IMG/VR virus record: IMGVR_UViG_3300042471_000228
Span: 28,522-92,521 of that record
DNA: 64,000 nt
Strand: one strand, 5' to 3'
Origin: a virus
This document shows positions 5,812 to 40,856 of the stretch, piece by piece. The notes beneath the pieces are model-generated. The model worked only from the letters and a program-made list of their open reading frames with translations. It had not been told where the DNA came from and did not search any database. Position 1 is the first letter of the stretch. The number at the start of each line of letters is the position of its first letter. A program made the translations under genes and the position numbers.

Positions 5812-8430
5812 TTAACCTTGATCATAATAACCACCATATCCAGCTCCTGTTTGCACAGGATACATTGATGCTAATGATTTCATATAGTCATCTGCGTAAT
5901 TGGATTGAGTATTATCTGACATTAATTTCAAGAGTGTTTCATCATCTTCTTCTGGAAAACGATTTCTCAATAATGCAAAAGCATCCGCTTTCTGTTGACT
6001 ATAAGGATTACTTGGATTTAGTTCATCACCTCCTGTAAATTCTACAAAACCACCAGAAGAAGGATCTGTCATATAGTGATTACCATACACTTCGTTTAGT
6101 GCTTGTCCTTGTGCTCTATTAGTAATGGCATTAATTAGAGATTCTCTAATTCCTTGTCTTGCTTGAGCATTAGCATTATCAAACTGTTGATTAGCAATAA
6201 TAGTTTTATCATAGTAATCTTGCGCAGATGCTGCGTTTGCCATTCCAGTTTGATTGAATATATTTGCTTTTGTCAACTCAAACTGATTTGCCGCACCTAC
6301 ATTTATATTGTTGTATCTACCTAGTGTATCAGCAGTAGCTTTAGCAGCATTACCTTGAATCTGAGAAGCGCGTGCGTTGTATGCTTGTGCAGGTGCATAT
6401 GCTCCAGCACCTTGAGTAGCAATATTTGCTTGCTCAGATATTGCAGCAAGTTCTCTAGTGGGATCGTAAAAAGTTGGTTCTGGTATATACGGTGCTAACT
6501 TAGGTGTCCACGGCATGTATTTCTTTACACGCATTAAATCACCAAAAGCACCTGCTGTAGCAATAGCATCTTGTAACCACCATTCAGCACCAGGTCTTTC
6601 ACGTCTTTGAGTTACATCAAGTTCATTTGTTGGTATTTCTCCTGGTCCTTCTGTTTCATCAACTTCAACATCTTGCATCTCAGGATCAATAGTGTATGCA
6701 TCTAAATGATCTAGACCAATTTTTGCATCATCAGCACTTCTATAAATTTTACCTTCTGCACCTTTAAATGTTCTTTCATTTCTTGCCGTCAATCCATCTT
6801 TAGGATCTGTTACAAACTCTTTAGTATATAGTTTAGATGGATCGTTTACTTTATCTCCTAGTTTCTTTACATCATAACCATACAAACTAAGCATACCTTT
6901 ACGATTTTGAATCTTAGACGAATCATCTAAATTTTCATAATCATCAAAAGTACCATTAGGATTAGTAGCTTGCCAGTATCTGAATTCTAACATATCAGGA
7001 TCAGCAAATCCATAGAAACCATCATCTCTTTTCTTTCCTTTTCCTTTTGGTACATTAGCTTCAGTTGCATTTTCATATTGAGATTGTGAAGCAATTTTAA
7101 ATCCAGGAGCACCAAGATCTTTTAATCCTGTGCCTTTATTGTAAGATGATACTTTTGTAATAAAGTCTTTATCTTTTAAAGACATTGCATCTTTTGCTCC
7201 TGCATAGATGATCCAACCATCATTTGTTTTTTTAGCAAATCCTTTTTTATCTAGATCTTCTAAAAGAGCATTTGCTGCTTTTACATCCTCTTCAATAGAT
7301 CCGTACTGAGGTTTATAATTCTCAGCACCTGAGAAAGACTGTCTTGTAGGAGTATTCTTATAGCCTATTTTAGTTACTTGTCTAAGTTTACCATTAGCAT
7401 CTCTAAAGTAGTCACCAGCTTTTAAACTAGGATCACCTTGTTTTTTTACCTTAGACTCATCAATTTTTGCTTTAGATGGTTTACTCTGACTTACAGTTTT
7501 CTGAGTAGTCTTATTTGTTGTAGTGTTCATTACTGTACCAGGCTTAATAAAATCATTTGGTACACTAACACTTTGCGGCATTGCAACACCTCTTCCGTCT
7601 ACATAATACGCTCTACCTTGTGGATCAACATTTAAGTATATACCACTAGTAGGATCGAACTGTTGCTGTTGTCTTAGTCTATCTAATCTCCTTTGCAAAC
7701 GATTCTGTCTTCTTACATTCATACCAAACTGTGCTTCCGGCATAGTTTCTTCATCTACAAATTCTTGTTCAGAAGGATTCTCCATTTCATACATGTCATC
7801 ATCCAGCATCTCTTCCTGACCAGTCTCTTCAGTTCTTAATGGTAGCATATCCTTAGGATCAATCTGATTTACCATCATATATGGAAGTGCTACAGTAGGA
7901 ATACCATCTGGGAATCCTTTCATAGATTCTTGATATGCAGCAAGCTTTGCTAACTTAATATTGTAGTTAGAAATCATCTGCTCAGCAGTTTCCTTGCTAC
8001 GCTTATCTAAATCAGGATCAGCAAGAATCTCACGATACTTATTGATATCATATTTCTTAGCAATAGCTGCAGGAGTTTTAGATTTAGTTTCTCCAAACTC
8101 TGCAAGAATCTCAGGATCCTTTATAATCATTGCACGAGTGTCACTAAAAATAAAACTCTCATCTGGTACATTTAAGGGTACACCTCCTTGAGCATGTCTT
8201 TTACCTGATATATTAAAATGTGCAGGTAGACCACCAACTTTAGTTAGTACTGTTTCACCACCTTCAGCTTCTATAGTAGCTTGCTTTCTAGGTGCAGCTG
8301 TCAAGTTTTTTCTAACCTTCATAGGTTCTTGACTCATACCATTAGGTATGTACATTGGAGCTAGTTGATTGTAACTAACTCCTCCGTCTTTTTTCTGAGG
8401 TATGCTTTTTATTTTTACTCTTCTAACCAT
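5812..8430 (-). CDS. large virion protein with GG-rich N-terminus, 872 aa
   Basis: The protein starts MVRRVKIKSIPQKKDGG. Its first dozen residues match the C-terminal tail of the 2258-aa protein (VRKVKIKSLPRNTQ), so the two share a terminal tag. Residues 50-110 carry several Gly-Gly motifs (IEAEGGETVL, KVGGLPAHF, HAQGGVPLN) that I remember from large Bacteroidota phage virion proteins. The middle is Arg/Gln-rich and acidic, and the C-terminal third is Ala/Asn/Gln-rich and probably helical. It is separated by 26 nt and 6 nt from its neighbours in the giant-protein operon. The exact function is unknown. A structural or packaged protein processed at GG sites is possible but inferred. Confidence 0.82.
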   Translation of the reverse strand: MVRRVKIKSIPQKKDGGVSYNQLAPMYIPNGMSQEPMKVRKNLTAAPRKQATIEAEGGETVLTKVGGLPAHFNISGKRHAQGGVPLNVPDESFIFSDTRAMIIKDPEILAEFGETKSKTPAAIAKKYDINKYREILADPDLDKRSKETAEQMISNYNIKLAKLAAYQESMKGFPDGIPTVALPYMMVNQIDPKDMLPLRTEETGQEEMLDDDMYEMENPSEQEFVDEETMPEAQFGMNVRRQNRLQRRLDRLRQQQQFDPTSGIYLNVDPQGRAYYVDGRGVAMPQSVSVPNDFIKPGTVMNTTTNKTTQKTVSQSKPSKAKIDESKVKKQGDPSLKAGDYFRDANGKLRQVTKIGYKNTPTRQSFSGAENYKPQYGSIEEDVKAANALLEDLDKKGFAKKTNDGWIIYAGAKDAMSLKDKDFITKVSSYNKGTGLKDLGAPGFKIASQSQYENATEANVPKGKGKKRDDGFYGFADPDMLEFRYWQATNPNGTFDDYENLDDSSKIQNRKGMLSLYGYDVKKLGDKVNDPSKLYTKEFVTDPKDGLTARNERTFKGAEGKIYRSADDAKIGLDHLDAYTIDPEMQDVEVDETEGPGEIPTNELDVTQRRERPGAEWWLQDAIATAGAFGDLMRVKKYMPWTPKLAPYIPEPTFYDPTRELAAISEQANIATQGAGAYAPAQAYNARASQIQGNAAKATADTLGRYNNINVGAANQFELTKANIFNQTGMANAASAQDYYDKTIIANQQFDNANAQARQGIRESLINAITNRAQGQALNEVYGNHYMTDPSSGGFVEFTGGDELNPSNPYSQQKADAFALLRNRFPEEDDETLLKLMSDNTQSNYADDYMKSLASMYPVQTGAGYGGYYDQG

Positions 8431-8436
8431 AATTAA

Positions 8437-10896
8437 TTAGTCTAAGTATTCAACTTGTCCACCCATGTTAATGATCTCCTGAATCTCTTCGTCACTCAAA
8501 TAATATTCTCCACCTTTCTTATAGGATCCTCCATATCTAGCATATGGTGATGTAAAGTTATATCCGGGAAATTGTACAGGTACTTGTTGATCAAGTCTAA
8601 AGTATCCTTGATCATTATAATCACCTCTGTCCTTTTTTGTATTTTTTGTATATACCTGATCGGCAGACATTTTATTATACACTTCCTTTTTCTTCTTTTC
8701 ATTACCCATATTCTGAGTAAAACCTTCTATAAGATTTAAACCTGCCAACATTGTTGGTGCTTCGTATGGATTATAACTTCCCAATTTTTGTCTTACTCTT
8801 GTACGACTCTTTAGTTCAAGATCTTCATTTGCTCCTTCAGGCGCTTCTTCGTAAATAGTATTACCTGCGTAATCTTCACGTTCTGTAGTATCGTATCCAT
8901 CCATACTATAACCAGCTGTTCCAAATGGATCTTCTTCTTCTTCTTCATATTCAGAACCCATTTGATACTGAATGAGACCACCATATTCTTTTATGTATTC
9001 AGGTCTCATATATTGAGAGAAAGTTTCTGCTTCAGATGGTCCCATCATTCCAGGTGCAGGTCGCCAATTACCTATTCTATTATAGCGATTCTCTAATCTG
9101 TCTAGTTTATTGGATTCTCGTCTAGTTAAACCTTGTCCGTATTGCTCTCCTAAATTACCTTCACGTTGATACAACTCATCTATTCTAGAACCTAAATTAC
9201 GTCTTCTATTCTGGAAAGATTGATTACGCAGTTCAGAATATGCATTGTTATAACCTCTTGGATCATACACAGATTTCATAGGAATCTGTTCTTTCTGAGA
9301 TTTCATTTCTCCGACAGACATAGGATTTCCTCTCTCTGTATAATTAATATCACGATTATTTCGTGCAGCTCTATTAAAGATAGAACCTCTTTCACCAGTA
9401 GATTCTGCAGATTCTGCAGATTGAGATCCTGCGGTATTACCTAATGCATTTCCTGAAGGACCATATGTATCAAAATAAAAGTCTATAGACTTAGCTCTGT
9501 TACCAGGTAATAGAGCACGTCTCTTATTGATACTCATACGAGATAAGAAAGTTCTGTATTCAGCTGGTGTCATTCCTGCTGCAGCAGCTTCTTTCTTTTC
9601 TTGTTCACTTCCTGCTGCGGGTGCTCCTGCATTTGTAGAAGTTCCTTCTTTAGTTCCTTCTTTTCTTGCTGCTGCTTCCTCTTCTTTCTTCTTAGCAATA
9701 TCATCTATAGTTTTTTCTACAATAGATTCTTTTTTAGAATCATCTTCTGTTTTTAAAGTAGTAGGACCTTTTGATTGCAATTTAACAGGGGAATCCGTAA
9801 AAATAGGATCAATTATACTAGCATCAATTTCTTGAGGTGCAGCATTAGGATCTATGGGAACAGGTAGATATTCTTCTTCTTCTCCTTCAGGAATTAGTGA
9901 GATATTACGCATTTTATTTCGAAAATCTAATTGAGATTGAATATCAGTAGGATTTTCTGGAATGTATTCGTTATCCGGATATGGTGATAAAGAATTTCTA
10001 TTTATTTCATATTGTGAACGTACTTCAATAGGTGTTCCTGCTCCAGGTACATTTTCTGAAAGAATGTTTTGATTATATGATGGATTCTGAGTAGTAAGAC
10101 CTAATGATGGAATACTTGGAACATAGTTAACTATATTAGGATTAACTCCTTGTGCAGCATTAGGATCTATAGGAATAGGTAAATATTCTTCTTCTCCTTC
10201 AGGAAGTAGTGAGATACCAGAACGTAATATAGGAGGATTCATATGATCAAACGGTAGTGTTGCTTGATCTCTAAAATTACGACCCATCTGTGCAATAGGC
10301 ATCTGTTTAGTCTTTATCTTTTTAACGTACACATCATCAGGTGTACCCGCCCATTCTTCAGCAAGTGTTAAGAAATTATCTTGAAGTTTTCCTATATTAG
10401 CATTATTACTATATGCATCCATCCAAGCATTTGCTTTTGTGAAATCAGGTTGAGGACCAGCAAATCCACCGTATTGGAACATATTAGTCAATTCATTCTC
10501 GTACTCAGAAGCTTCGTTCATTAACTCTTCTTCCATAGTAGACATAGCTTTTTCTTTGACCTTTCTCAAGAAATCAGCTACTCTTGTTGACTTTTGAGAA
10601 CCCATGTCCATGGAAGATCCACCATCCTGCATCTTTCCATAATGCTGCATGTACTGCATATTCATCTTCTGAATATCATTCATTGCTCCACCATCCTGAA
10701 AAACAAAAGGTGTTTTAGGAGTAGGTGCACCATAGTTAAAGAACTGGTTCATAGTAGGTGCTTGTGGAAATGCTTCACCACCGGTTTTTCTAATCCGTGG
10801 TGCAAAACGTGATGGGTTACTATACATAAGGAAATCTCTTAATTCTATTGCAAGAGGATTGTTTTTTTTATTATTACGAGAGTTTCGTCTTTTCAT
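8437..10896 (-). CDS. large virion protein with internal duplication, 819 aa
   Basis: The protein is low in hydrophobicity and rich in Asn, Gln, Glu and Gly-Gly motifs (QDGGA, YGGL, YKKGGEYYL). A segment of about 21 residues occurs twice, at about 228-248 (LLPEGEEEYLPIPIDPNAA) and 332-353 (LIPEGEEEEYLPVPIDPNAA). An Ala/Glu/Lys-rich low-complexity stretch lies near 390-440. The C-terminus ends with the GG motif segment MGGQVEYLD. There is no enzymatic signature. It sits between the 2258-aa hydrolase protein and the 872-aa protein with 6-38 nt gaps, so it is part of the giant virion-protein operon. The extended, repeat-containing composition suggests a flexible packaged or scaffolding protein (inference). 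Confidence 0.82.
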   Translation of the reverse strand: MKRRNSRNNKKNNPLAIELRDFLMYSNPSRFAPRIRKTGGEAFPQAPTMNQFFNYGAPTPKTPFVFQDGGAMNDIQKMNMQYMQHYGKMQDGGSSMDMGSQKSTRVADFLRKVKEKAMSTMEEELMNEASEYENELTNMFQYGGFAGPQPDFTKANAWMDAYSNNANIGKLQDNFLTLAEEWAGTPDDVYVKKIKTKQMPIAQMGRNFRDQATLPFDHMNPPILRSGISLLPEGEEEYLPIPIDPNAAQGVNPNIVNYVPSIPSLGLTTQNPSYNQNILSENVPGAGTPIEVRSQYEINRNSLSPYPDNEYIPENPTDIQSQLDFRNKMRNISLIPEGEEEEYLPVPIDPNAAPQEIDASIIDPIFTDSPVKLQSKGPTTLKTEDDSKKESIVEKTIDDIAKKKEEEAAARKEGTKEGTSTNAGAPAAGSEQEKKEAAAAGMTPAEYRTFLSRMSINKRRALLPGNRAKSIDFYFDTYGPSGNALGNTAGSQSAESAESTGERGSIFNRAARNNRDINYTERGNPMSVGEMKSQKEQIPMKSVYDPRGYNNAYSELRNQSFQNRRRNLGSRIDELYQREGNLGEQYGQGLTRRESNKLDRLENRYNRIGNWRPAPGMMGPSEAETFSQYMRPEYIKEYGGLIQYQMGSEYEEEEEDPFGTAGYSMDGYDTTEREDYAGNTIYEEAPEGANEDLELKSRTRVRQKLGSYNPYEAPTMLAGLNLIEGFTQNMGNEKKKKEVYNKMSADQVYTKNTKKDRGDYNDQGYFRLDQQVPVQFPGYNFTSPYARYGGSYKKGGEYYLSDEEIQEIINMGGQVEYLD

Positions 10897-10933: not shown

Positions 10934-13900
10934 TTACTGAGTATTCCTAGGAAGACTCTTGATCTTTACTTTTCTAACAGAACCTCCATTGTTTTTAAAA
11001 TAAAAGTCTCTACCATCAGGATTTGATATACCATCAGGTAGCATGTTTTTAGCTGAGGCTTTATATAGAATTTCTTTTTTAACTTTATTAGGTATAGGTA
11101 ATAACCCAATTGTTGTACCAGTAGCATTATTAAGTATGTCTTCTAATGCTTCTCTTCCTTTATATTTTAATGGTCTATCATCATTAAATATTGTACCTAG
11201 TTCATGTCCTACTCCCATGATGTTTGCACCTAACCAACCTAGTGCTGGAGAAACAATTGGTATATTACCTGTTTTATTTGCTATAGCTTGTTGAGTATAC
11301 ATTCCAGCTAAAGGATGTCTAAAATTATCTACTGGATCTTCTCCAGGTTCTAATCCTTCTGCTGCTTCACGAGCTGCTTTACCCATAGGATCTCCTAATG
11401 ATTTATTTAATCTATCTTCAAATGACATACGTCTACTGCGAATCTTTAGAGGTTTTTCACTATGAGTAGAATCCCAAGTATTATCTTGAGGATCATATAT
11501 CATAGAAAACTTTTGTAATTCAGTAACAGGAATAATATTACCATTTGAATCTAGATATCTAGCATAAGATTTAAAATTAGGATCTAGATAAATACTTTGT
11601 CCAGTAGGTGTTTTATATTCCTTACCTTTAGTAGATCCACCTTCTTGTTTAACAGGTATTGAATCAAGTATCTTTTTTGTAAATGCGTTTCTGCTAACCA
11701 TATCCTTACCTTTAGAGGTTCTCTTATATTCCTTTAGCATTTTCTGATGCGCTACTTCTTTTTCCTTAGGAGTTTTTGCATTACTATACTCATCTATAGC
11801 TGAAGTAAACTTTGTAAAGTCCTTTATTACACCATTGTAAGTATAATCTACTATTAGATCTTTTAGCGTGTCAGGTACTTTATCAAAAGCATTTTTTCCA
11901 TGTCTGTTGTTGTAAACTCTTTCAGCAGTAATTAGATGGTTTGCTAGATCTTTATTAAATAATTCTTCAGCTTGTTTTTCTGTTATACCTTTAGAGTATG
12001 TTCCCTTTCGTACTTCTTCATCAGTCAACTTATGTCCGTAAGCAATAGTTTTATTACCACCTTCTTTTGAAGCATGTGGTAACCACTTTTGAGAATTCTT
12101 ATTAAATCCTTCTCTAATACCGTTCTCCTCTATTTTTAATGCCTTTATGTATTCTTCTGTTGGAGTATACTTTTTACGAAGTTGTTTAGGTGTACTAGGA
12201 ACAGTTGTAGCATTAGCAGCAAATGGTTGGAAGTTTTCTCCCCATTGATAATTACCTATATCTCTAACTGCTCCAATAGTTTTAGGAACTAATGGATTTG
12301 AAGCAGTCTCTAACAATTTTGCTTGCTTTGCAACTTTATTTGCTGCTTTAGTAGCATTAGCTAATTTAGCAGTTTGTTGTGCTGCACGTAACCATTTAGC
12401 AGCACCTGCTGTAGCAATATTTAATCCATCTAATGCAGCTCCTGATAAATCTCCTTCATATAAATTTTTACCTAATCCTATTGCAGATGCTCCCATTCCT
12501 ATATATCCTGGTACAAAAGATGCCGCATCTAATGTTAAATCAAATGCATCAGACGTATCTGTTGATGGTTTGGTATTTCTTTTCCAATTTGCATTTTTAT
12601 ATTCATCAACGGTATTCCATCCCATAGCTTTCGCACGTCTCTCTAATTCTTTTTGATCAACTTGACCTTTAGATTGATACTTTACTAAACCCCCGTCTTT
12701 GAATTCGTACTTACCCAAATAGATACCTTCTACTGCACCACCTTTTTTCATTGTTTGTTTATCATACACGGTAACTAGATCTTCATATTTGAATCTATCA
12801 TTTCCTGCAGCTTTAGCTTGACTCCTTCTATTGTTTATATAGTTATCATAGGAACCAGCATCTACTAGATCTTTTGCAATCTTTCCTACAGACTGATTGT
12901 ATGCAATACCAGAAAGTTTTGCTAATTGATCCGCTGTCAGATTGATACCTTTATTATTAGATATCTCTTTTAAGAATAGATAGTCTTTTGCAATTTTATA
13001 GAAAGTTGGTAAAGCTGCCTTCTCAGGTTTATCTAACTCATAATCAGACTTTATCAGTTTTTTCCTTAACTCTTCATTTAGATTAGTTTCATCTTTAAGT
13101 TTTGTTAAACCCATTGACTTCTCTCTATCCGAAAGGAATGTATCCTGTAATGTTTTTTCAAATGCATTAACTTGTTCAGAACTTTTACCAGCATATGTTT
13201 CAAGTGTAGGTATTGCTCTTGATACACGCATCAATTTATCAAACTCATTCTCAGATATTGGAATATCTTTTAACAAAGCTTTTTTGTTATTCTCAATTGT
13301 CTTCAAGAATTTGTAAGTAGTCTTTCCAGAAATACTTTCAGCTAATCCATCAAATTCATTTCTTGCTAGTGCTCCTTTAGGATTAAACTTACCATATTCA
13401 GTTTGATAATAGTTAACACCTTGTTCAGGAATACCGGATCCATCAGCTAGTGCACCTTCATAATAGTTAGGTCTAGTGATACCAGATATCATTGAAACTT
13501 TGTTCTTTCCATTACCTTTAACCTTTCCTTCTAAGAAGTTAGTTAAAGGATCTTTTTCAACTTTACCGTGTACGTTGTGCTCAACAAATAGTTTACCTTG
13601 GTCATCTGCTTTTACTACACCAACGTGTGTTGTAAATAATCTATTATTTAATGACTTAGTTTGATTGTAAGCTTCTTCTGTATAGTTAGATCCTTCATAG
13701 AATATATTAACAACGTCACCTGGTTTTACTTTACTATCCCAAGTAACACCTCCACCTATAATATCTTTTAGATAAGATGCTTGATTCTGTAAGTTAGATT
13801 TTATAAATGATGCAATCTGATCTTTATTTTTTAAATCAGGAACCTGATCTCTTTCTGGTAAACCTGCAAATACTAATTTACCACCTTTACTTTGAATGTT

Positions 13901-16900
13901 ATCTGATATGTGCCATGCAGAACCACTTAAACCTAGATTCTCACGCGCTTCAAATCCAGCAGCATCTTCGTCACAAATAGTTCCATTAACATACTGAGCA
14001 CACATTCCAAATGGTGTCTTAGAATCAGGGTTTAATTTAAACTTAAACGCAACTCTAGGATTAAACTCAGTTATATCATCCGTGTTAAACTTGGTACCTT
14101 TGAAATAACCTTTACTATTTAGACTCTTTTCAAAATCTCTTATAGCTTGGTTTGAAGCACTGATATTAGCAGAACCATCTTCTTGAATAAATGTATTAAG
14201 ATCTAATGGCGTCTGTATACCAAGTGTGGTTTTAGAATCATTTTGATTTTTAAAATCCTTTATAGCTTTTTTGGTAACGTCATCTAGAACACCTTCTTTA
14301 TAAGGTTTATTATGTTCATTGTATTTCTCAACAGCTTCTCTTGTTTTTTTACCAAATATTCCATCAATACCATCTTTGTTAGGACCGTATTTACCTAACA
14401 TATCCATGAGTCCGTTACTAGCTAGGAACTTCTGAAGCTCAATAACTTCTTCTTTAGATTTATAATTTTTAGGATCAATCTCTTTAGACTCAAATACACC
14501 AGCGTTTTTAAAATTATTCTGTATGCTTTTAATATCATCTTCAGAATAGTCAGACTCATTCATGAATCTTAGTTTATAGTCTGCAGATTTTTTATAGTCC
14601 TTTACTAGATTCTCTTTGTTATTATATAGAGGTTCTGTGGAACTGAACTTTGGAGAAGTTTCATATTGCTTAATTTCTTTTTGAATTGCCGCTTCTTCTT
14701 GTGCAGTTTTTAATGCTGGAAACTTATCTTGAAAATAAGCATCCATGTTTTTCAAATCTACTTGTGGTTTCTGTAGAGCGATCCTTTCTTGTGGTATACC
14801 TAAAGCTTTTTCAAATCTATCTTTTTGAATAGCTTGTGCGTATTTCTCAGAACCACCGTCTACCATTTTCACAAGACCTCCATCTCTAAACTCATACTTA
14901 CCTAGATAGATACCACCATCTCTCATTCCTTCCGGTTCTTGAGATCTATTATATAATTGTGAACCTACATATCCTGCACCTATAGCAGGTACTGCAGCTG
15001 GTAACATTTTAATAAGTCTTCTCTTTTCTTCTAAAGATGTTTCTGGTTTAAAGTGTTTATTAAGATTTCCTGTTTCAATTAAGTAATCTGTAAAATCATC
15101 TCTATCTTGTTTAATAACATCAATAGCTTGTTGCATAGATAAACCATCTCTTTTCATGAGCTCTGATGCTAGATTTGCTCTAGCTCCTGATAACTCAGCG
15201 TGTAATTCAGTAGGAGCAGACGCCCACGTTCGATACGTCTTAGGAGCATTTGGTTGAACCATTGCTCTATTAAAATCTGCAGCAATAGGATTATTTGCAT
15301 GACTTGTAAAATACTCATACTGAGGATCATAACTTTCTAAAGTTGATTCCCACTTTCCTATCTTTTGAGCATCGTGTGCTATTTCATGAGCATTTGTGTG
15401 TCTTATTTTGTTAGGATCAATTAATCGATTTTGATTAACATCAACTAATACATCCTTAGTTTTTGTTTTAAAAGGATTTGATAAACTCCGAGGTAACTTC
15501 TCTTTTGCTAAGTGAGTTGTTAATACAGGACGACCCTGAGTACCTAGTGTAATTGTACTATGCTGAGTTCTTACACCACCTATATTATCAATATTTCCTT
15601 TTAAAAATAGCTTGTCATATTCTGGTAAGTTTTGAAAACTAGGATCATTCTCATCAAAGTATACTAGTTTATTTTTTTTATCATTTGGCAGAACAGTTTC
15701 TAATTTATCAACATCTCTATCAGCATTTGCTCTTTTTAAATCTAATACTTTTCTTTCAAACTCAGGATCATAAATAGAAGTGCTATTTTTTAATTCATTT
15801 ACTTTATTTAGATCTACATCATGAGAAGTAACCCAGTCACTTTCAAGTTTTCTACGATCATCCTGTAGTTTAAAAAACTCATCGGATAAACTTTCAAATC
15901 TTTCAAAGTTATTAGGATCTTTTAATTGCTCACTTATACTCTCTAATTGGTTATCTATATTATCAATATTCGCAGAAAACTCTGAGTCAGCTTTTGATCT
16001 TGCTTTTGAAATTTCATCAAGTTGTGGTTTTACCCTAGTGTTGTAATCATCTAATCCAGCTTGATTATATGTCCATTTTTTTTGAAATTCAGTAGCATCA
16101 TCAAAAGCTTTTTGTTGGTCAACTCTTGTAAAGTTTTCTGAATAACCCGATTCAGGTACTCTATCTATACTTACTCTTTTACGTTCTAAATCCTGTAGAC
16201 CTTCTAACTCTATGTCATCTACACTTCTACCAATATTATTTTCTTTAAAGAATTCATCTATAGTATAATTGTCATATGTTTTAGGAGGTATGCTTTTTGA
16301 AACTTTTTTTGCAAACGATCCAAATGGTAAAAATCCTGCAGTGTTTAATCCTAGTTCTCCAGCACCACCCCAAGTAGTATATGTTTCTTTTTCACCTAAA
16401 TCTCTACCAACTCTTCCTACATCCATTAATACAGATGCTGGATTGAACGCTCCTATTACATCACTCATAGGAGATGATGTAGGATAGTTACCACTTAGGT
16501 TACCTTGTGGTACATAACCTCTTTGCATTAAAGATCCTACTGCATCAAGAGGTTGATCCATTGCGTAAATAAACTGATTCTTTAATCTCTCAGTACCATC
16601 TGTAGCAGGTTTTATTTCTCCTTGATCTAATAGTTGTTGCTTGATTTGTTCTTTCTTTTCTTCCTCAGCAATCTTCTTTTTAGTAGCTGCAGCTTTAACT
16701 TTCTTTGCGGGAGTCATACCATCCCTTTCATCTCTTTTAGCCTCTTCTACTCTAGGATTAGTTACATAAGTATTATCTTGAACAGCTGTTTGAGGTCTCA
16801 GACCTTCCATCATATATTCATCAAAACTAACTTGTCCTTTCTTCTGATACTTTACTAAACCACCATCTTTGAATTCGTAGTCTCCCATATAGATACCACC

Positions 16901-17710
16901 TCCTTGCTGTTTTTTAATAGTACCTTTTTCTCTTTCGTAATCTATCTCTTCTTGTTCTGCTGGTTTGTTTTGCCATCTTTTAAGATCTTTATCGTAATAG
17001 TAAGTTCCTTTCTTTAATTGACCGGACTTCTGTGTATAGTTAGGATCATAAGAATCAAGAGTTCTATTCTTACTAATACTTAAATTAACTGGTTGCAATT
17101 TAGTTTCTGATACTGGTAACTTAGTAATCGGTCTAGGTTCTACTCTTTCTAAAGGTGGTTCAAATACAACAGGTCGAGTTGGTTTTTTATATTGCGGATA
17201 TAGTGTATTAATATCACCCATAGTGGGTTTATTACCATTAGCAAAAAAATTACCAGGATCTAAATAATAAGGTTTATTTCTTGGGGTTCTTATTTCCTCA
17301 CCAAGTTCTCTAGCTCTTTGAGCAACTAAATCATGTGATACAATATTCCAATTTTCTCTTCTAGCATCTTCTAAAAGACCAGGCTCATTAAAAGCGTTAT
17401 ATAAACTTAAACTATCAGCATATGCTTGATTAGCTATTTTAAATTCTTTAGGATCTGATATAACACGTGGCACTTGTCTACCTTTTTGATATTTACCTAA
17501 TGGTACTTCAGTAACATACTTACCAGGAAATTCATATTCTCCACCGGGCATCATCATCTGTTGATTACCAAGATCATCAATACCAAGTATTGGGAACTTA
17601 ACATCCTTCATAGTAATCCTGTTACTAGGAATGATGTTCATGTCATTAAATCTATCAGGACTATCTGGTAAATAACCCGTGTTCGTAATTTTTACTTTAC
17701 GCTTATTCAT
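10934..17710 (-). CDS. 2258-aa multi-module virion protein with peptidoglycan hydrolases
   Basis: Modules are separated by three copies of a repeat close to GIYLGKYEFKDGGLVKYQ, at about residues 272-290, 933-951 and 1661-1680. Module A holds an HEIAH zinc-peptidase motif (His775, Glu776, His779) with possible distal acids near 835-842. Module B has a PG_binding_1-like domain at about 1080-1155 (DGIDGIFGKKTREAV), then a CHAP/NlpC-like region with Cys1237 (GMCAQYV), GDVV at 1331, His1362 (THVGVV) and His1378. Module C has a GH24 lysozyme-like domain at about 1848-2018 with Glu1861/1862, Thr1888 and YGH at 1891-1893. The tail ends VRKVKIKSLPRNTQ. Acting on host wall during entry, or as lysin after processing, is inference. 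The start overlaps the stop of the muzzle-like gene by one base. Confidence 0.85.
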   Translation of the reverse strand: MNKRKVKITNTGYLPDSPDRFNDMNIIPSNRITMKDVKFPILGIDDLGNQQMMMPGGEYEFPGKYVTEVPLGKYQKGRQVPRVISDPKEFKIANQAYADSLSLYNAFNEPGLLEDARRENWNIVSHDLVAQRARELGEEIRTPRNKPYYLDPGNFFANGNKPTMGDINTLYPQYKKPTRPVVFEPPLERVEPRPITKLPVSETKLQPVNLSISKNRTLDSYDPNYTQKSGQLKKGTYYYDKDLKRWQNKPAEQEEIDYEREKGTIKKQQGGGIYMGDYEFKDGGLVKYQKKGQVSFDEYMMEGLRPQTAVQDNTYVTNPRVEEAKRDERDGMTPAKKVKAAATKKKIAEEEKKEQIKQQLLDQGEIKPATDGTERLKNQFIYAMDQPLDAVGSLMQRGYVPQGNLSGNYPTSSPMSDVIGAFNPASVLMDVGRVGRDLGEKETYTTWGGAGELGLNTAGFLPFGSFAKKVSKSIPPKTYDNYTIDEFFKENNIGRSVDDIELEGLQDLERKRVSIDRVPESGYSENFTRVDQQKAFDDATEFQKKWTYNQAGLDDYNTRVKPQLDEISKARSKADSEFSANIDNIDNQLESISEQLKDPNNFERFESLSDEFFKLQDDRRKLESDWVTSHDVDLNKVNELKNSTSIYDPEFERKVLDLKRANADRDVDKLETVLPNDKKNKLVYFDENDPSFQNLPEYDKLFLKGNIDNIGGVRTQHSTITLGTQGRPVLTTHLAKEKLPRSLSNPFKTKTKDVLVDVNQNRLIDPNKIRHTNAHEIAHDAQKIGKWESTLESYDPQYEYFTSHANNPIAADFNRAMVQPNAPKTYRTWASAPTELHAELSGARANLASELMKRDGLSMQQAIDVIKQDRDDFTDYLIETGNLNKHFKPETSLEEKRRLIKMLPAAVPAIGAGYVGSQLYNRSQEPEGMRDGGIYLGKYEFRDGGLVKMVDGGSEKYAQAIQKDRFEKALGIPQERIALQKPQVDLKNMDAYFQDKFPALKTAQEEAAIQKEIKQYETSPKFSSTEPLYNNKENLVKDYKKSADYKLRFMNESDYSEDDIKSIQNNFKNAGVFESKEIDPKNYKSKEEVIELQKFLASNGLMDMLGKYGPNKDGIDGIFGKKTREAVEKYNEHNKPYKEGVLDDVTKKAIKDFKNQNDSKTTLGIQTPLDLNTFIQEDGSANISASNQAIRDFEKSLNSKGYFKGTKFNTDDITEFNPRVAFKFKLNPDSKTPFGMCAQYVNGTICDEDAAGFEARENLGLSGSAWHISDNIQSKGGKLVFAGLPERDQVPDLKNKDQIASFIKSNLQNQASYLKDIIGGGVTWDSKVKPGDVVNIFYEGSNYTEEAYNQTKSLNNRLFTTHVGVVKADDQGKLFVEHNVHGKVEKDPLTNFLEGKVKGNGKNKVSMISGITRPNYYEGALADGSGIPEQGVNYYQTEYGKFNPKGALARNEFDGLAESISGKTTYKFLKTIENNKKALLKDIPISENEFDKLMRVSRAIPTLETYAGKSSEQVNAFEKTLQDTFLSDREKSMGLTKLKDETNLNEELRKKLIKSDYELDKPEKAALPTFYKIAKDYLFLKEISNNKGINLTADQLAKLSGIAYNQSVGKIAKDLVDAGSYDNYINNRRSQAKAAGNDRFKYEDLVTVYDKQTMKKGGAVEGIYLGKYEFKDGGLVKYQSKGQVDQKELERRAKAMGWNTVDEYKNANWKRNTKPSTDTSDAFDLTLDAASFVPGYIGMGASAIGLGKNLYEGDLSGAALDGLNIATAGAAKWLRAAQQTAKLANATKAANKVAKQAKLLETASNPLVPKTIGAVRDIGNYQWGENFQPFAANATTVPSTPKQLRKKYTPTEEYIKALKIEENGIREGFNKNSQKWLPHASKEGGNKTIAYGHKLTDEEVRKGTYSKGITEKQAEELFNKDLANHLITAERVYNNRHGKNAFDKVPDTLKDLIVDYTYNGVIKDFTKFTSAIDEYSNAKTPKEKEVAHQKMLKEYKRTSKGKDMVSRNAFTKKILDSIPVKQEGGSTKGKEYKTPTGQSIYLDPNFKSYARYLDSNGNIIPVTELQKFSMIYDPQDNTWDSTHSEKPLKIRSRRMSFEDRLNKSLGDPMGKAAREAAEGLEPGEDPVDNFRHPLAGMYTQQAIANKTGNIPIVSPALGWLGANIMGVGHELGTIFNDDRPLKYKGREALEDILNNATGTTIGLLPIPNKVKKEILYKASAKNMLPDGISNPDGRDFYFKNNGGSVRKVKIKSLPRNTQ

Positions 17711-27842: not shown

Positions 27843-30800
27843 CTAGTTATAGTCAATACAACATTGACAGTCATCAAAAATTTGTTTAATAGTTACCTCC
27901 ATTATATCTCCTGATGTAGCTACTTCCGCAGCAGTCCAACATAAACCTGGTAACTCATTTAATTCAATAGATTTACTCAATGCTGCAGGTTCTGCAAAAA
28001 CTTCATTATCTGTATACAAGAAGATTGTAGGATCATCGCATCTTGAGAGTTTGTATAAGAATCCCGCACATGTTACACAATCTGCAAAAACATCCATTAC
28101 AATAACATCTGAGAAATTTAAAGGATCACAATAGTCTTCAGTAGTACTTTGGAAAATAAAACATCCTTCAACAGGAAGTCCATCTACTTGAATTTTTGCA
28201 ACTTGTCCTGGAACTAAATCATTAGTTGTACAATATAATGGAGTTTCAAATGTTGTGTCATCACAAGCATAAACTTTTGTTATACAAGGACTTATATCTA
28301 AGACAGATTGACAATTACAGCGAACATTGTCACCATCTTGTACAGGTGTGCAATCTCCACAATCTACAGGAATAATTGCTGTACATAGATTAGATGCAAT
28401 TGCAGGTGCCATTATATCAGCTGCATTATCGAAAGTCTCTATGTAAAAATCAGGATTTCCATCAACTCTAAGACTAGTCATTGGAATCCAAGATGGATCA
28501 ATATCTGCGGGATCACAATCCCATATACCAAGGGGATTAAATCTTCCACTAGTGTCCCCCACACAGTTAGTAGTACTACTGGTTAAAGTGATATTATTAT
28601 ATGCTATAGGTAATACTGCCCAAGATCCTACAACACTACTAAAAAGATTATAATCTAATGGATTATTACAGTATTTATACAGGAGTCGTCCAAAAGGTAT
28701 ACCTTCTGCTTGACCTGTTAATCCAAGATTACCTAAGTTTCCTCCAACTATAGGATTAGGTGGTTCATAACCAGATACTACATAATAATCTGCATTTGTT
28801 GGATCTTCTGAAGGTGGAAATATATGAGTCATCTGATCTACGAATCCTAAAATTAGTGCTCTATGTGTCAAGTAAGATTCAACTCCAAAAGCATTACCTG
28901 GATTCTGAGTTGGTGTAAGTAACTGCTGAAATGTATAAGCGGGTCCTCCATTAGGAAGTGATGATAAAAATCCTGCAGTAATAGATACACCATCCAATGT
29001 TTTAATATCATGTGCAACTTCCATTGCAGTTTTAAATGTCATACATCGATCACAATCTGTTAAAGTGGAGGAAATTCTTCCACAAGGTGTATTGTAATCA
29101 TGATACATAGGATAGGTTCTTGTTGGTGTATCTACTTCATATATAATACCTGAAGGAACTACTGTAGCATTACTTGCAAAAACACTACCTCTTAAAGTAG
29201 ATAGATTACTTGCATTAAAATAAGGTGCAGCTGTAACTTTAATTGTAGTACCATCAACAACTTCTAATATAACACCTTCATTATCTATATTAAATTTGTA
29301 TTGAGGAGGCATTCCAGAAAGCAACTTTATAGTCATACCTGCTTCAAGACCTGCTGTAGTATTTAAGGTTAACGTAGCATATTCAGGATAAGATTGTGCA
29401 ACATTACCCAATAGTATATTGGCAGCTGTATTTGTACTATCTGCTGTAGTAGTGTATTGAACTTTTGTACCATCTGTAATAGTTATTAGATTTTCAAATG
29501 GAACAGAACCTTGTGCATGTTCTACACCATTCGGCCAACCATCAGTTAATATTACCATCTTTTTAATACTATTAGGATTGTAATAATTAGTATTAAATAA
29601 AAGATTCCTAGCAGCTGCTAAACCTATTGCAGTATTTGTTCCTCCTGGAGATGAAGCTACAAAAGTATTTATGTGATCAATGCAGCCTTGTAAGTCAGAT
29701 GTTGGTGTTAATTGACTTACTAAATATGTACTAAATGTAATAGCAGCTATCCTAAGTTTGTTTTGATTTATTAAATCTACTATAGCAGCTTGATAAAAGA
29801 ACCCAGAATTAGGATCTGTAAAAAAGTTTTTTAAACCAGCAATTTCTGTTCCATTAACTGAAGGACCTACGTCAATAGCAAACACAAGATCAATAGATGG
29901 ACAATCGCATTCTCCTTCACAAATACACTGCTCTTCATCTGGATCATATGTAAATCCAGCAGGACAGACTAGATCTCCAACACTTGTACCAATACATTGA
30001 TTACTATAAATATCTTGAATATATTGAGGAGGGCATTGATCGCATTGATACCATTCTGTTTTAAAATCTAAAATTTGATTTCCTGTATTTAGTAAATACT
30101 GTGATGTTAAAGCACCATCAAAACTTATATATAGATCTAATCCTTGTGTAAAATACAAACCTGGATAAACAGATGTCTCATCATCAAATCCAATCAGTTT
30201 ATTTACTGGATTTGTTGTATTACCAGTAGGTACTTGAATAACAGACCAAGTGGATCCTAAATCTTCGGATACTATAATTTCACCAGGCACATTGTTTATA
30301 CAAAATAACTTACCTTTAGAAAAAGTAAGTGCTATAGGAAAATTTAATATAAACTGTGAAGGAAACGTATATACAGGATTGAATACAGCGCCATCATTAG
30401 TTGATTTAAATATTCCAGTTCGTGTAACAGTTACAATTGCATCGTTAACAAAATCCGCAAATAAGTTTTGAACTATCGTTCCACTTACAGGTGCAGATAT
30501 TGCATTAGGTAAAAGTTCCCATGTTATACCACCATCTAAAGTTTTAAATAATTGAGGAATAGCTGTTGAAGAACTTAGACAAATGTAACCAGATGAAATA
30601 CTATTAAAAGAAAGAGCTATTTTACTAATCGTAGCTCCTATAAAATACAGAGTAGATAGATCTACTAATAAATCAAATGTTAGTCCTGAATCAGTAGATA
30701 GAAAAATATAATTAGTATCATAGATTAGTATCCTCTCAGAACTAAGATACAAGACACCTGATCCGTTATTTGGATTTAAGTTTATAGTAGAACTATACGT

Positions 30801-33536: not shown

Positions 33537-33544
33537 CAAATTTA
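33537..33544 (-). promoter_or_regulatory. candidate -7 box before the 540-aa virion gene
   Basis: The minus strand reads TAAATTTG, matching TAnnTTTG, about 55 nt upstream of the start codon and overlapping the end of the 141-aa gene. No good -33 element is visible. Confidence 0.45.
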
Positions 33545-33967
33545 TTTCAAGAAAATTAACTTGTATTTAGTACTGTTAATCAATGACTTAATCTCATCGA
33601 TTGTGTTTATGATCTCTGAATGTTCACACATATCCTGAACCTTATTGCACATGTCATAAAGACCACGAAGATAAGTAACACATTCTTCCGGAGTACTACA
33701 TTTTGCTAGTTCAGCTGATGTAGGAAATTCTAGTAACTTCTCACTAAGACCTTGCCATTGTTCAGCAAGACTATCAGCAAAGTCACCAACTTCATCATAA
33801 AATGCACCCATTGTCATGTGTGCTGAATAACTTGTTGTTTTTAAATGTGCGATATGAATTTTAGTTACTCCATTTAGTAACTCAAATGTAAGAGCTGTGA
33901 TAGCTCCCGTCATTTGTTTCATTGCATTTCCGGTAGCTCCACCACCTTCAATTTTCAATTGTCTCAT
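33542..33967 (-). CDS. small helical virion or assembly protein, 141 aa
   Basis: The frame starts MRQLKIEGGGATGNAMKQM, 2 nt after the 235-aa ring-like gene. The protein is almost entirely helical, with a central segment (YSAHMTMGAFYDEVGDFADSL) and one cysteine-containing helix (MCNKVQDMCEHSE). The repeated pairing with the 235-aa gene and the tight spacing suggest it works with that protein in the neck or tail. I do not recognise its family with certainty. Confidence 0.65.
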   Translation of the reverse strand: MRQLKIEGGGATGNAMKQMTGAITALTFELLNGVTKIHIAHLKTTSYSAHMTMGAFYDEVGDFADSLAEQWQGLSEKLLEFPTSAELAKCSTPEECVTYLRGLYDMCNKVQDMCEHSEIINTIDEIKSLINSTKYKLIFLK

Positions 33968-39614: not shown

Positions 39615-40856
39615 TTATCTTTTAAAAAAGTTGTCGTTTCTTGGAATTCTACGTTGACGTGTTTCTTCGCGCTCCACTACAGGAGTACTAGATTGCATCT
39701 TCGCTTGTTCCGTTTTTAATTGTCTCACTGTTTTCTCTACAGTTTGTTGTTGACCTTGGTTTCTAATTTTACCTTTGTAACCATCTGGATCAGCTAACAA
39801 CCATAAAGCTTCAGCAATCAAATCGTGGCGAGGTTCAACATACTGATACTTCTCTAGCAAGTGACCTAACAAATTAGTAGGTCTTCCTGACATAGAGGGG
39901 TACTGAGGTTGAACCAAACCTGAATAAAGCATAGATTGTGTTTTCTTATCTAGCTTTACACCGTTTAACTCACCGGGTTGTAGTGTAGTGTAAACATTCT
40001 GCATATAGTGTTGTGCAGCTGCTTCTTGTTGCTTACGGATTTTCTCCTGTTGTGCAACTTTCTGAGCTACTACTTGCTCCTGCATTTTGTCCAACTTTGG
40101 TTTGAACTTCATAGCTTTCGCTTCAAGTTCACCTCTGTCTTTCCAACCTAAGATCTCTTCATCAATATCATCATCGTTTCCAAAGTTAGTTGCTCTCAAA
40201 TACTCACGTAGAATTACTTCTTGGTCACGCTCGTTTTTAGGATTCAACTCTCTATGTTCTTCAACCTCTGATAAGATCTTAAACAAACCTTTTAGATCCT
40301 GACCTCCATCTGATACATACTTTGCAGCATATAACAGTTCATCAGGAAGAGAGTCATAAAACTCTTGAGGAGTTTCTTGACGAATTCTGTTCTCAACTTC
40401 GTTAAAGTTTGCATCAAGCAACTCTTCAAAGTCTTTTACAGAATACTCTTCTAAAGGTTTGTCATCATCAAATGGTACAATTTTACCAGCTTCGATCATT
40501 TTATTGAAAACTTCTGCAAGTCCACTCTTTTCGATCTTTGGTCTACCTGCTGATTTCTCAACAGGAGCATCGTCTTTAGGACCAGAGAAGTCATCTTCAG
40601 GATCAGCTTCTTTGATGATAGCATCTACATCTACCTTTTTTTTCTTTGACTCATCGTCATCATCGTCTGAGTCGTTGTCAATAAATGATAGATCTGGTGA
40701 AGTTGAACTGAAGATATTTGGTTTAGCTTCAGTCTTCTTACCATCTCCATCAGGAAGCATCACGTTTTCTGCTCCCGGGGTTCCTAGAATTTCATCTAGG
40801 TTGATTTCTACTTCTTCTACAGAGGTAGAATCATTGTTTTGGTCTGTCGTACTCAT
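39615..40856 (-). CDS. probable scaffolding/head assembly protein, acidic, 413 aa
   Basis: The N-terminal 120 residues are extremely acidic with a poly-Asp run (NDSDDDDDESKKKK). The remainder is helical and Gln-rich with a coiled-coil stretch (KMQEQVVAQKVAQQEKIRKQ) and a basic C-terminus (RQRRIPRNDNFFKR). An acidic, coiled, basic-tailed protein between portal and major capsid is the classic profile of a scaffolding protein. The start is preceded by the AACCAAC leader and a TAATTTTG box in a 102-nt gap. No protease motif is seen in it. Confidence 0.7.
   Translation of the reverse strand: MSTTDQNNDSTSVEEVEINLDEILGTPGAENVMLPDGDGKKTEAKPNIFSSTSPDLSFIDNDSDDDDDESKKKKVDVDAIIKEADPEDDFSGPKDDAPVEKSAGRPKIEKSGLAEVFNKMIEAGKIVPFDDDKPLEEYSVKDFEELLDANFNEVENRIRQETPQEFYDSLPDELLYAAKYVSDGGQDLKGLFKILSEVEEHRELNPKNERDQEVILREYLRATNFGNDDDIDEEILGWKDRGELEAKAMKFKPKLDKMQEQVVAQKVAQQEKIRKQQEAAAQHYMQNVYTTLQPGELNGVKLDKKTQSMLYSGLVQPQYPSMSGRPTNLLGHLLEKYQYVEPRHDLIAEALWLLADPDGYKGKIRNQGQQQTVEKTVRQLKTEQAKMQSSTPVVEREETRQRRIPRNDNFFKR

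Follow-up and report, generated by a model that had tools for sequence, protein, structure and literature searches.

We describe here a protein of 2258 amino acids (aa), encoded within a 64-kb window (positions 28,522 to 92,521) of the linear, 92.5-kb IMG/VR virus record IMGVR_UViG_3300042471_000228, which is probably a virion cargo (ejection) protein whose modules are docked or packaged by a short peptide around two glycines, the GG tag, that doubles as a seam for module exchange. The N-terminal domain of the protein is constant, as is the place of its gene immediately after that of the muzzle-type tail protein (hereafter the muzzle), and the interior of the protein consists of exchangeable modules; the seams of exchange coincide with a short conserved GG peptide; and the tag is restricted to three genes that follow the muzzle in succession. 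An initial annotation of this DNA had placed here a single open reading frame (ORF) with near-identical linkers at about residues 272, 933 and 1661. The ORF (P0001, minus strand, 10934-17710) is confirmed, and the linkers, which carry the tag, start at residues 271, 932 and 1662.

Fifteen related loci (designated below by L and a number, as are those gathered later) were first retrieved from IMG/VR, and most of the genes in the slot, the position directly behind the muzzle, share only about 40-77 N-terminal residues. Breaks in homology are anchored at the linkers, beyond what chance would give. Compared with L004, the DNA is 98% identical from gene nucleotide 2794 (codon 932, the first after the linker GG) to the stop codon, and upstream of codon 932 nothing matches in register, only a second linker copy. 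Nucleotides 1-231 match L005 (89%) until the linker of L005 itself begins, and a second match covers the last 62 nucleotides (89%); between these ends L005 carries a diverged module of the Cys/His and lytic transglycosylase (LT) kind (25% identity). L105 shares residues 244-955 (linker 1, zincin and linker 2, 54%) and 2020-2255 (81%), and since these two matching blocks are adjacent in L105, it lacks the wall modules that the 2258-aa protein carries from linker 2 to its last internal GG. Only residues 930-1709 (linker 2 to just past linker 3) are common to L186 (66%). L187 retains the module, sharing residues 1010-1673 (48%). At the position of linker 3, L187 has GGWLNKYQ where the 2258-aa protein has GGAVEGIYLGKYEFKDGGLVKYQ; the two linker types are equivalent, because L187 shows KQTMQYGGWLNKYQ where the 2258-aa protein shows KQTMKKGGAVEGIYLGKYEFKDGGLVKYQ. 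Among the slot-region proteins of the first set, 70 of 173 homology ends fell no more than 15 residues from a GG, against 32.7 expected and a maximum of 51 in 2000 shifts; once short matches and the N-terminal boundary were left out, there were 37 of 108, against 18.2 expected and a maximum of 32 in 5000 shifts, the proteins in both counts being related and the events not independent.

The linker is conserved as a peptide. Over 50 nucleotides, its DNA copies in the window (at 12681, 14868 and 16851) agree with the middle copy at 74%, and the outer two are 82% identical over 76 nucleotides; because the DNA copies are only 74% identical the peptide is the more conserved of the two. Differences at first, second and third codon positions number 69, 42 and 259 (35 pairs from nine copies in four related genes), and by this measure the linker peptide is under purifying selection.

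The count of bare GG was dropped as a signal for the single protein (17 against 12.1 in shuffles, p 0.07, not significant), and the context of GG was analysed instead. We defined a pattern on the first set (T1, GG.{0,3}[LIVM].[KQND][AYFM]Q), where it occurs 40 times in 250 ORFs against 2.35 in shuffles, and tested it on a hold-out. The latter was gathered with a muzzle profile, which gave 80 further loci, or 65 after removal of nine on contigs already used and six duplicates; one of these has no ORF following the muzzle, which leaves 64 slot ORFs. T1 occurs there 57 times in 189,491 aa behind the muzzle (2-4 in shuffles of that part) and six times in the 223,503 aa that precede or make up the muzzle. 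Around GG in the 64 slot proteins, the site is preceded at offset -3 by Y/F/M in 246/543 cases and at -2 by K/Q in 222/543, compared with 145/950 and 51/950 in 432 upstream control proteins of the same contigs. The preference for I/L/V at +2 (193/542) is not specific, because the controls show 263/948.

The resulting motif [YFM][KQ]xGG (ORFs of at least 200 aa, including 62 slot ORFs) has a density per 1000 aa of 1.82 in the slot gene, 2.54 and 1.11 in the next two genes, 0.04 and 0.00 in the following two, and 0.09 before and in the muzzle. Within the window's own record, it is found among ORFs of at least 150 aa only in the 2258-aa gene and the next gene. C-terminal tags of three kinds end 25/64 slot ORFs, 2/179 later ORFs and 0/439 earlier ones, according to patterns composed after the hold-out C-termini had been inspected. 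A second recurrent tag of 25 residues, ..ELT.EEI..Y..GGYIVEELD, forms the C-terminus of many slot proteins and is found at internal module joints too; it was seen in the slot genes of L015 and L017 and at the C-termini of L121, L153, L166 and others. In the literature, subscription journals being mostly uncovered, neither such a tag nor such an exchange of modules was found described.

The N-terminal domain lies in the first ORF behind the muzzle in 41/64 hold-out contigs (ORF lengths 179-2926 aa), and it opens the corresponding protein in Cellulophaga phages phi4:1 and phi17:2, as well as the gene directly behind the muzzle in Leptolyngbya phage Lbo-JY46, where the opposite end is weakly transglycosylase-like. 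For placement of the 2258-aa protein in the virion, as claimed initially, there is an indirect pointer in the homologous domain of phi4:1 gp40, for which the GenBank record lists detection in virions by tandem mass spectrometry (MS/MS). AlphaFold models the domain with a confident all-beta core (block-mean predicted local distance difference test, pLDDT, 92-96 over residues 21-70); for this fold Foldseek returned no match at E <= 0.001, and the best VIA score was Z 4.9. A profile of the domain (A1) detected 80 loci, and a search of bacterial genomes with it gave none that was confirmed. Among all loci then gathered, A1 begins a longer protein in 40 (23 distinct sequences, 490-2286 aa) and stands alone in 57, as a gene of 79-127 aa (47 distinct sequences). 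The stand-alone gene is typically about 82 aa long, as at L058:9992-10240, its 57 loci lying between L023 and L097, and in L077 the domain occurs in tandem inside one ORF. In five stand-alone loci that were examined, the other genes barely match the window, and all five have an ORF of 739-741 aa a few genes downstream, that of L041 matching the terminase gene of the window (E 1e-5).

What follows the N-terminal domain varies. Pfam identified DUF5872 in three of the 41 hold-out slot ORFs, SLT in two, and LysM, glucosaminidase, YkuD and phage lysozyme in one each. For phi4:1 gp41 together with 22 first-set relatives from the slot region (E up to 0.01), it identified DUF5872 in ten, LysM and PG_binding in two each, and SLT, YkuD, Phage_lysozyme and Peptidase_M91 in one each (the last two under the cut-off); gp41 has a phage tail lysozyme. 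From this content, wall enzymes are a recurrent rather than universal payload. DUF5872 is a frequent module, often directly after the N-terminal domain (L007, L008, L011, L012, L020, L108 and others).

The initial annotation had read three wall-degrading modules in the 2258-aa protein, and the residues that it named are exact (HEIAH at 775, C1237, H1362, E1861, and T1888 within NKTIAYGH). Of these modules, the peptidoglycan (PG)-binding/NlpC-P60-like part and GH24 are wall-directed, but the HEIAH module is a putative zincin with no sign of a link to the wall. An LT-like domain had been missed, and the three predicted wall-cutting candidates are now the NlpC/P60-like, LT-like and GH24 modules. 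Pfam searches by module returned two recognised wall-binding or wall-cutting domains, PG_binding_1 (residues 1086-1150, E 8e-8, over the cut-off) and Phage_lysozyme (1883-1959, E 2e-4, 21.9 bits, slightly under the cut-off of 22.3), and no match in the HEIAH or the Cys/His part.

The Cys/His part had been called CHAP- or NlpC-like. Its likely catalytic Cys-His-polar residues (C1237, H1362 and N1379) are identical in 8/8 sequences covering them, as is E1504 in the helical domain that follows (8/8). The model of residues 640-1660 has a mean pLDDT of 50; within the Cys/His part, beyond about residue 1260, most values are 65-75. On this low-confidence model, VIA-align matched residues 1234-1417 (595-778 in model numbering) to NlpC/P60 structures, namely 6bim (Z 6.4, root-mean-square deviation 2.9, 98 aligned), LytE (Z 5.9), 4xcm (5.8) and PlyPy (5.6), CHAP and C39 scoring lower. 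Residues 1453-1658 (814-1019 in the model) were matched to lytic transglycosylases and goose lysozymes, namely MltF 5aa1 (Z 6.7, root-mean-square deviation 4.2, 149 aligned), MltC (Z 5.4) and cod lysozyme (5.1). These alignments, with Z < 8, suggest NlpC/P60-like and LT-like families, placed on two stretches marked by sequence conservation, and it is plausible that the PG-binding, NlpC/P60-like and LT-like parts make up a three-part wall enzyme. The HExxH motif and E835 are conserved between the 2258-aa protein and L105, and a search for further zincin relatives found only L105's own contig. By its motif, the HEIAH module is likely a metalloprotease. The zincin was rejected as a universal processing enzyme, HExxH being present in only 9/27 slot-region proteins.

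A course of events consistent with these data can be outlined. The N-terminal domain would dock the protein near the tail or portal, and the protein would be carried in the particle and leave before the DNA, by analogy with crAss001, P22 and T7 as presented in the available text of PMC10172136. On infection it would exit, in a partly unfolded state, through the tail. The peptidoglycan would be opened for the channel by the PG-binding/NlpC-P60-like, LT-like and GH24 modules, and the zincin would perform a separate proteolytic job. Every module would keep a GG tag of its own, as this peptide would dock or package the stretch in question within the particle. Since all modules bear the same tag, recombination could swap them there without functional loss. 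This matches the ejected multi-tool for entry proposed initially, which is the best reading of several wall-directed modules on one chain, a repeated linker and a gene position typical of virion cargo.

The other proposal made initially was a polyprotein, in which a protease, active during assembly or after entry, would cut behind the GG of the linkers and free separate enzymes. GG cleavage sites exist in adenovirus and asfarvirus polyproteins, and known GG proteases have a consensus upstream of GG. The information around GG lies upstream here also (Y/F/M at -3 and K/Q at -2), and because cleavage by a GG protease would produce just such a bias, we keep cleavage as an alternative, although an unlikely one. 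The blocks between linkers each look self-contained, and the cysteine peptidase module aligns to C39 double-glycine proteases as well (PCAT1 Z 4.8, 6mpz Z 4.3), but these scores are under that for NlpC/P60 (Z 6.4) and the module is flanked by PG-binding and LT-like domains. Moreover, tags are retained in relatives that lack the cysteine peptidase module (L105, L007) and in relatives that lack HExxH, a motif present in only 9/27 slot-region proteins; and no peptidase family was found among the 25 listed of 27 Pfam families for 41 other ORFs of the record, which is possibly incomplete because it is linear. Cuts at tags in the last 10-25 residues would free almost nothing, tags are nearly absent from genes before and in the muzzle, and in crAss001 gp45 a GGWLN segment lies inside the resolved portal-bound stretch 425-552, according to the available part of PMC10172136. 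As a candidate maturation protease between the portal and capsid genes, the product of 39615-40856 was rejected: it is acidic, scaffold-like and without a PHROG match.

It is quite improbable that the linkers are mere flexible spacers and recombination homologies whose peptide has no role. They do coincide with exchange points, and short shared repeats favour recombination, but the codon-position differences indicate selection on the peptide, the DNA copies are just 74-82% identical, two distinct linker types have GG..KYQ at the same place, and tags are also present at protein ends. We consider it very improbable that the protein is an endolysin for phage lysis rather than an entry device. In favour of a lysis role, the same 25 of 27 Pfam families include no endolysin family, in a linear record that may be incomplete; against it, the gene is inside the virion block and encodes 2258 aa, its N-terminal domain is common to a virion protein detected by MS/MS, and many slot relatives have no recognised hydrolase.

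Several points weigh against the tagged cargo protein proposed here from sequence. The slot protein and the two genes tested behind it have no significant homology to crAss001 gp45 or gp46. The N-terminal domain is not detectable in 23/64 hold-out slot ORFs, three contigs having it in the next ORF. The motif patterns were refined on the data, and the density of [YFM][KQ]xGG was measured on the contigs that suggested it. Foldseek gave no match at E <= 0.001 for the model of residues 640-1660, the NlpC and LT calls combine conserved residues with this low-confidence model (pLDDT 50; Z 6.4 and 6.7, < 8), and the zincin region was modelled without confidence, its fold being unconfirmed.

The kind of protein is already known, namely virion-associated wall hydrolases and ejection proteins, and the variant here is a modular, tag-seamed cargo protein. 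T7 gp16 is the virion-associated peptidoglycan hydrolase of a podovirus; such podovirus hydrolases are likewise virion proteins with wall-cutting domains for entry, to which the 2258-aa protein adds several wall activities, a putative metalloprotease and cassette exchange at a repeated tag. A close arrangement is that of phi4:1 and phi17:2 (Lightbulbvirus), where phi4:1 gp40 has the N-terminal domain of the 2258-aa protein and phi4:1 gp41 consists of lysozyme-GG-HExxH module-GG-HExxH module, both proteins being listed as MS/MS-detected. In phi4:1 the anchor and hydrolases are thus on two proteins, whereas the 2258-aa protein unites them in a single chain that has more modules.

Virion cargo proteins are encoded behind the muzzle in Bacteroides phage crAss001 as well, and its gp45 is seen in two places, the portal and the interior of the tail barrel (PMC10172136, available text). 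Cargo protein C1 (gp45; PDB 7QOG etc.) is encoded, like the 2258-aa protein, by the first gene behind the muzzle and has aromatic-GG segments. Its portal-bound stretch 425-552, resolved by cryo-electron microscopy, starts with AFGGWLN, close to the GGWLNKYQ tags of slot proteins, and a second resolved stretch begins five residues from a GG (same text); this placement is a lead and no proof, because the chance of both starts lying within five residues of GG is ~6%. Unlike the 2258-aa protein, gp45 is not mentioned as having a wall enzyme in the accessible sections of that paper. The N-terminal profile has no match in gp45, the profile of gene 5812-8430 reaches only E 0.14 against it, and the genes behind the slot were discarded as gp45/gp46 homologues, the homology not being significant. 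A further likeness is to the internal proteins of T4, which have very diverse bodies and only a short capsid targeting sequence in common, as far as the available portion of PMC3012670 describes them; slot proteins also have diverse bodies and a short common peptide, but here tags occur at each module and at C-termini, together with a folded constant N-terminal domain.

Table 1. Features of the 2258-aa protein and the genes adjoining it (window coordinates).
Feature	Residues	Window position	Strand	Remarks
Whole gene, probable modular virion cargo protein, 2258 aa		10934..17710	-	
Constant N-terminal domain	1-77	17480..17710	-	all-beta model
Module starting ..DP..Y.DSL.LYN..	80-267	16910..17473	-	also in L105 and L159
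Linker 1 (GGGIYMGDYEFKDGGLVKYQKKGQ)	268-294	16829..16909	-	
Mostly helical module	295-690	15641..16828	-	common to L105
Putative zincin (HEIAH 775-779, E835), Pro/Ala/Gly-rich end	691-928	14927..15640	-	
Linker 2	929-953	14852..14926	-	start of DNA identity with L004
Peptidoglycan-binding domain PF01471	1086-1150	14261..14455	-	Pfam
NlpC/P60-like cysteine peptidase, predicted (C1237, H1362, N1379)	1234-1417	13460..14011	-	
Lytic transglycosylase/goose lysozyme-like domain, predicted (E1504)	1453-1655	12746..13354	-	
Linker 3 (GGAVEGIYLGKYEFKDGGLVKYQSKGQ)	1657-1684	12659..12742	-	
GH24 phage lysozyme (E1861, T1888)	1850-2018	11657..12163	-	
C-terminal module	2020-2240	10991..11653	-	81% identical in L105
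C-terminal tag (GG)SVRKVKIKSLP	2241-2258	10937..10990	-	also in L005, L098, L105, L062
Muzzle-type tail protein, 1732 aa		17710..22908	-	crAss001 gp44 homologue; adjoins the 2258-aa gene upstream
Next cargo gene		8437..10896	-	four [YFM][KQ]xGG tags
Third gene behind the muzzle		5812..8430	-	tag RRVKIKSIP at start; position tagged in relatives

Neighbouring genes match PHROG families for the portal (E 1e-90), terminase (1e-56) and major head protein (4e-32). Homologues of portal, terminase, major capsid protein and muzzle lie within one block, as is typical of Crassvirales, and by these homologies the source is a distant crAss-like phage, whose relatives include the crAss phages of the gut. 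A full-length muzzle profile built from eight relatives and searched against three phage segments matched phi4:1 gp42 (5e-119) and Lbo-JY46 (7e-168), with a much weaker match to crAss001 gp44 (E 2e-9, mainly residues 6-158). The muzzle-plus-anchor block is common to Lbo-JY46 (L103, PP438436.1), recorded from a cyanobacterium, and to phages of Bacteroidota, phi4:1 among them. A search of the phage collection with the whole 2258-aa protein gave a match limited to the lysozyme part and no close relative. A PDB sequence search gave no match for the whole protein, the muzzle-type protein, two cargo genes or the C-terminal muzzle profile, and NCBIfam matches were weak, all far under the cut-off. Elsewhere in the virion block, a small gene at 33542-33967 strongly matches a PHROG starvation-inducible transcriptional regulator (E 9e-27), and Pfam matches in the record's 41 other ORFs include LCIB_C_CA, which is beta-carbonic-anhydrase-like (E 1e-27), and PhoH-like (E 8e-49).

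We tentatively raise the possibility that [YFM][KQ]xGG-x-[ILV] serves as an address code for a single virion compartment: the products of the three genes after the muzzle, which would line the tail barrel and portal, would carry it and capsid proteins would not, the unmarked capsid proteins then being, as part of the same speculative reading, the products of the following genes and the RNA polymerases. If so, any enzyme module fused to the tag would become loadable and ejectable, and the three genes would form a plug-in payload platform that evolves through swaps of tagged cassettes. The tagged cargo proteins described here would represent a natural plug-in system across dozens of contigs, with a constant anchor, tagged seams and exchangeable payloads. 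They may also offer a sequence handle on the loading and order of cargo in crAss-like phages, a question left open by the crAss001 structure paper in its available text. If the tag is sufficient for loading, the proteins that uncultured phages send into the host along with their DNA could be recognised by sequence.

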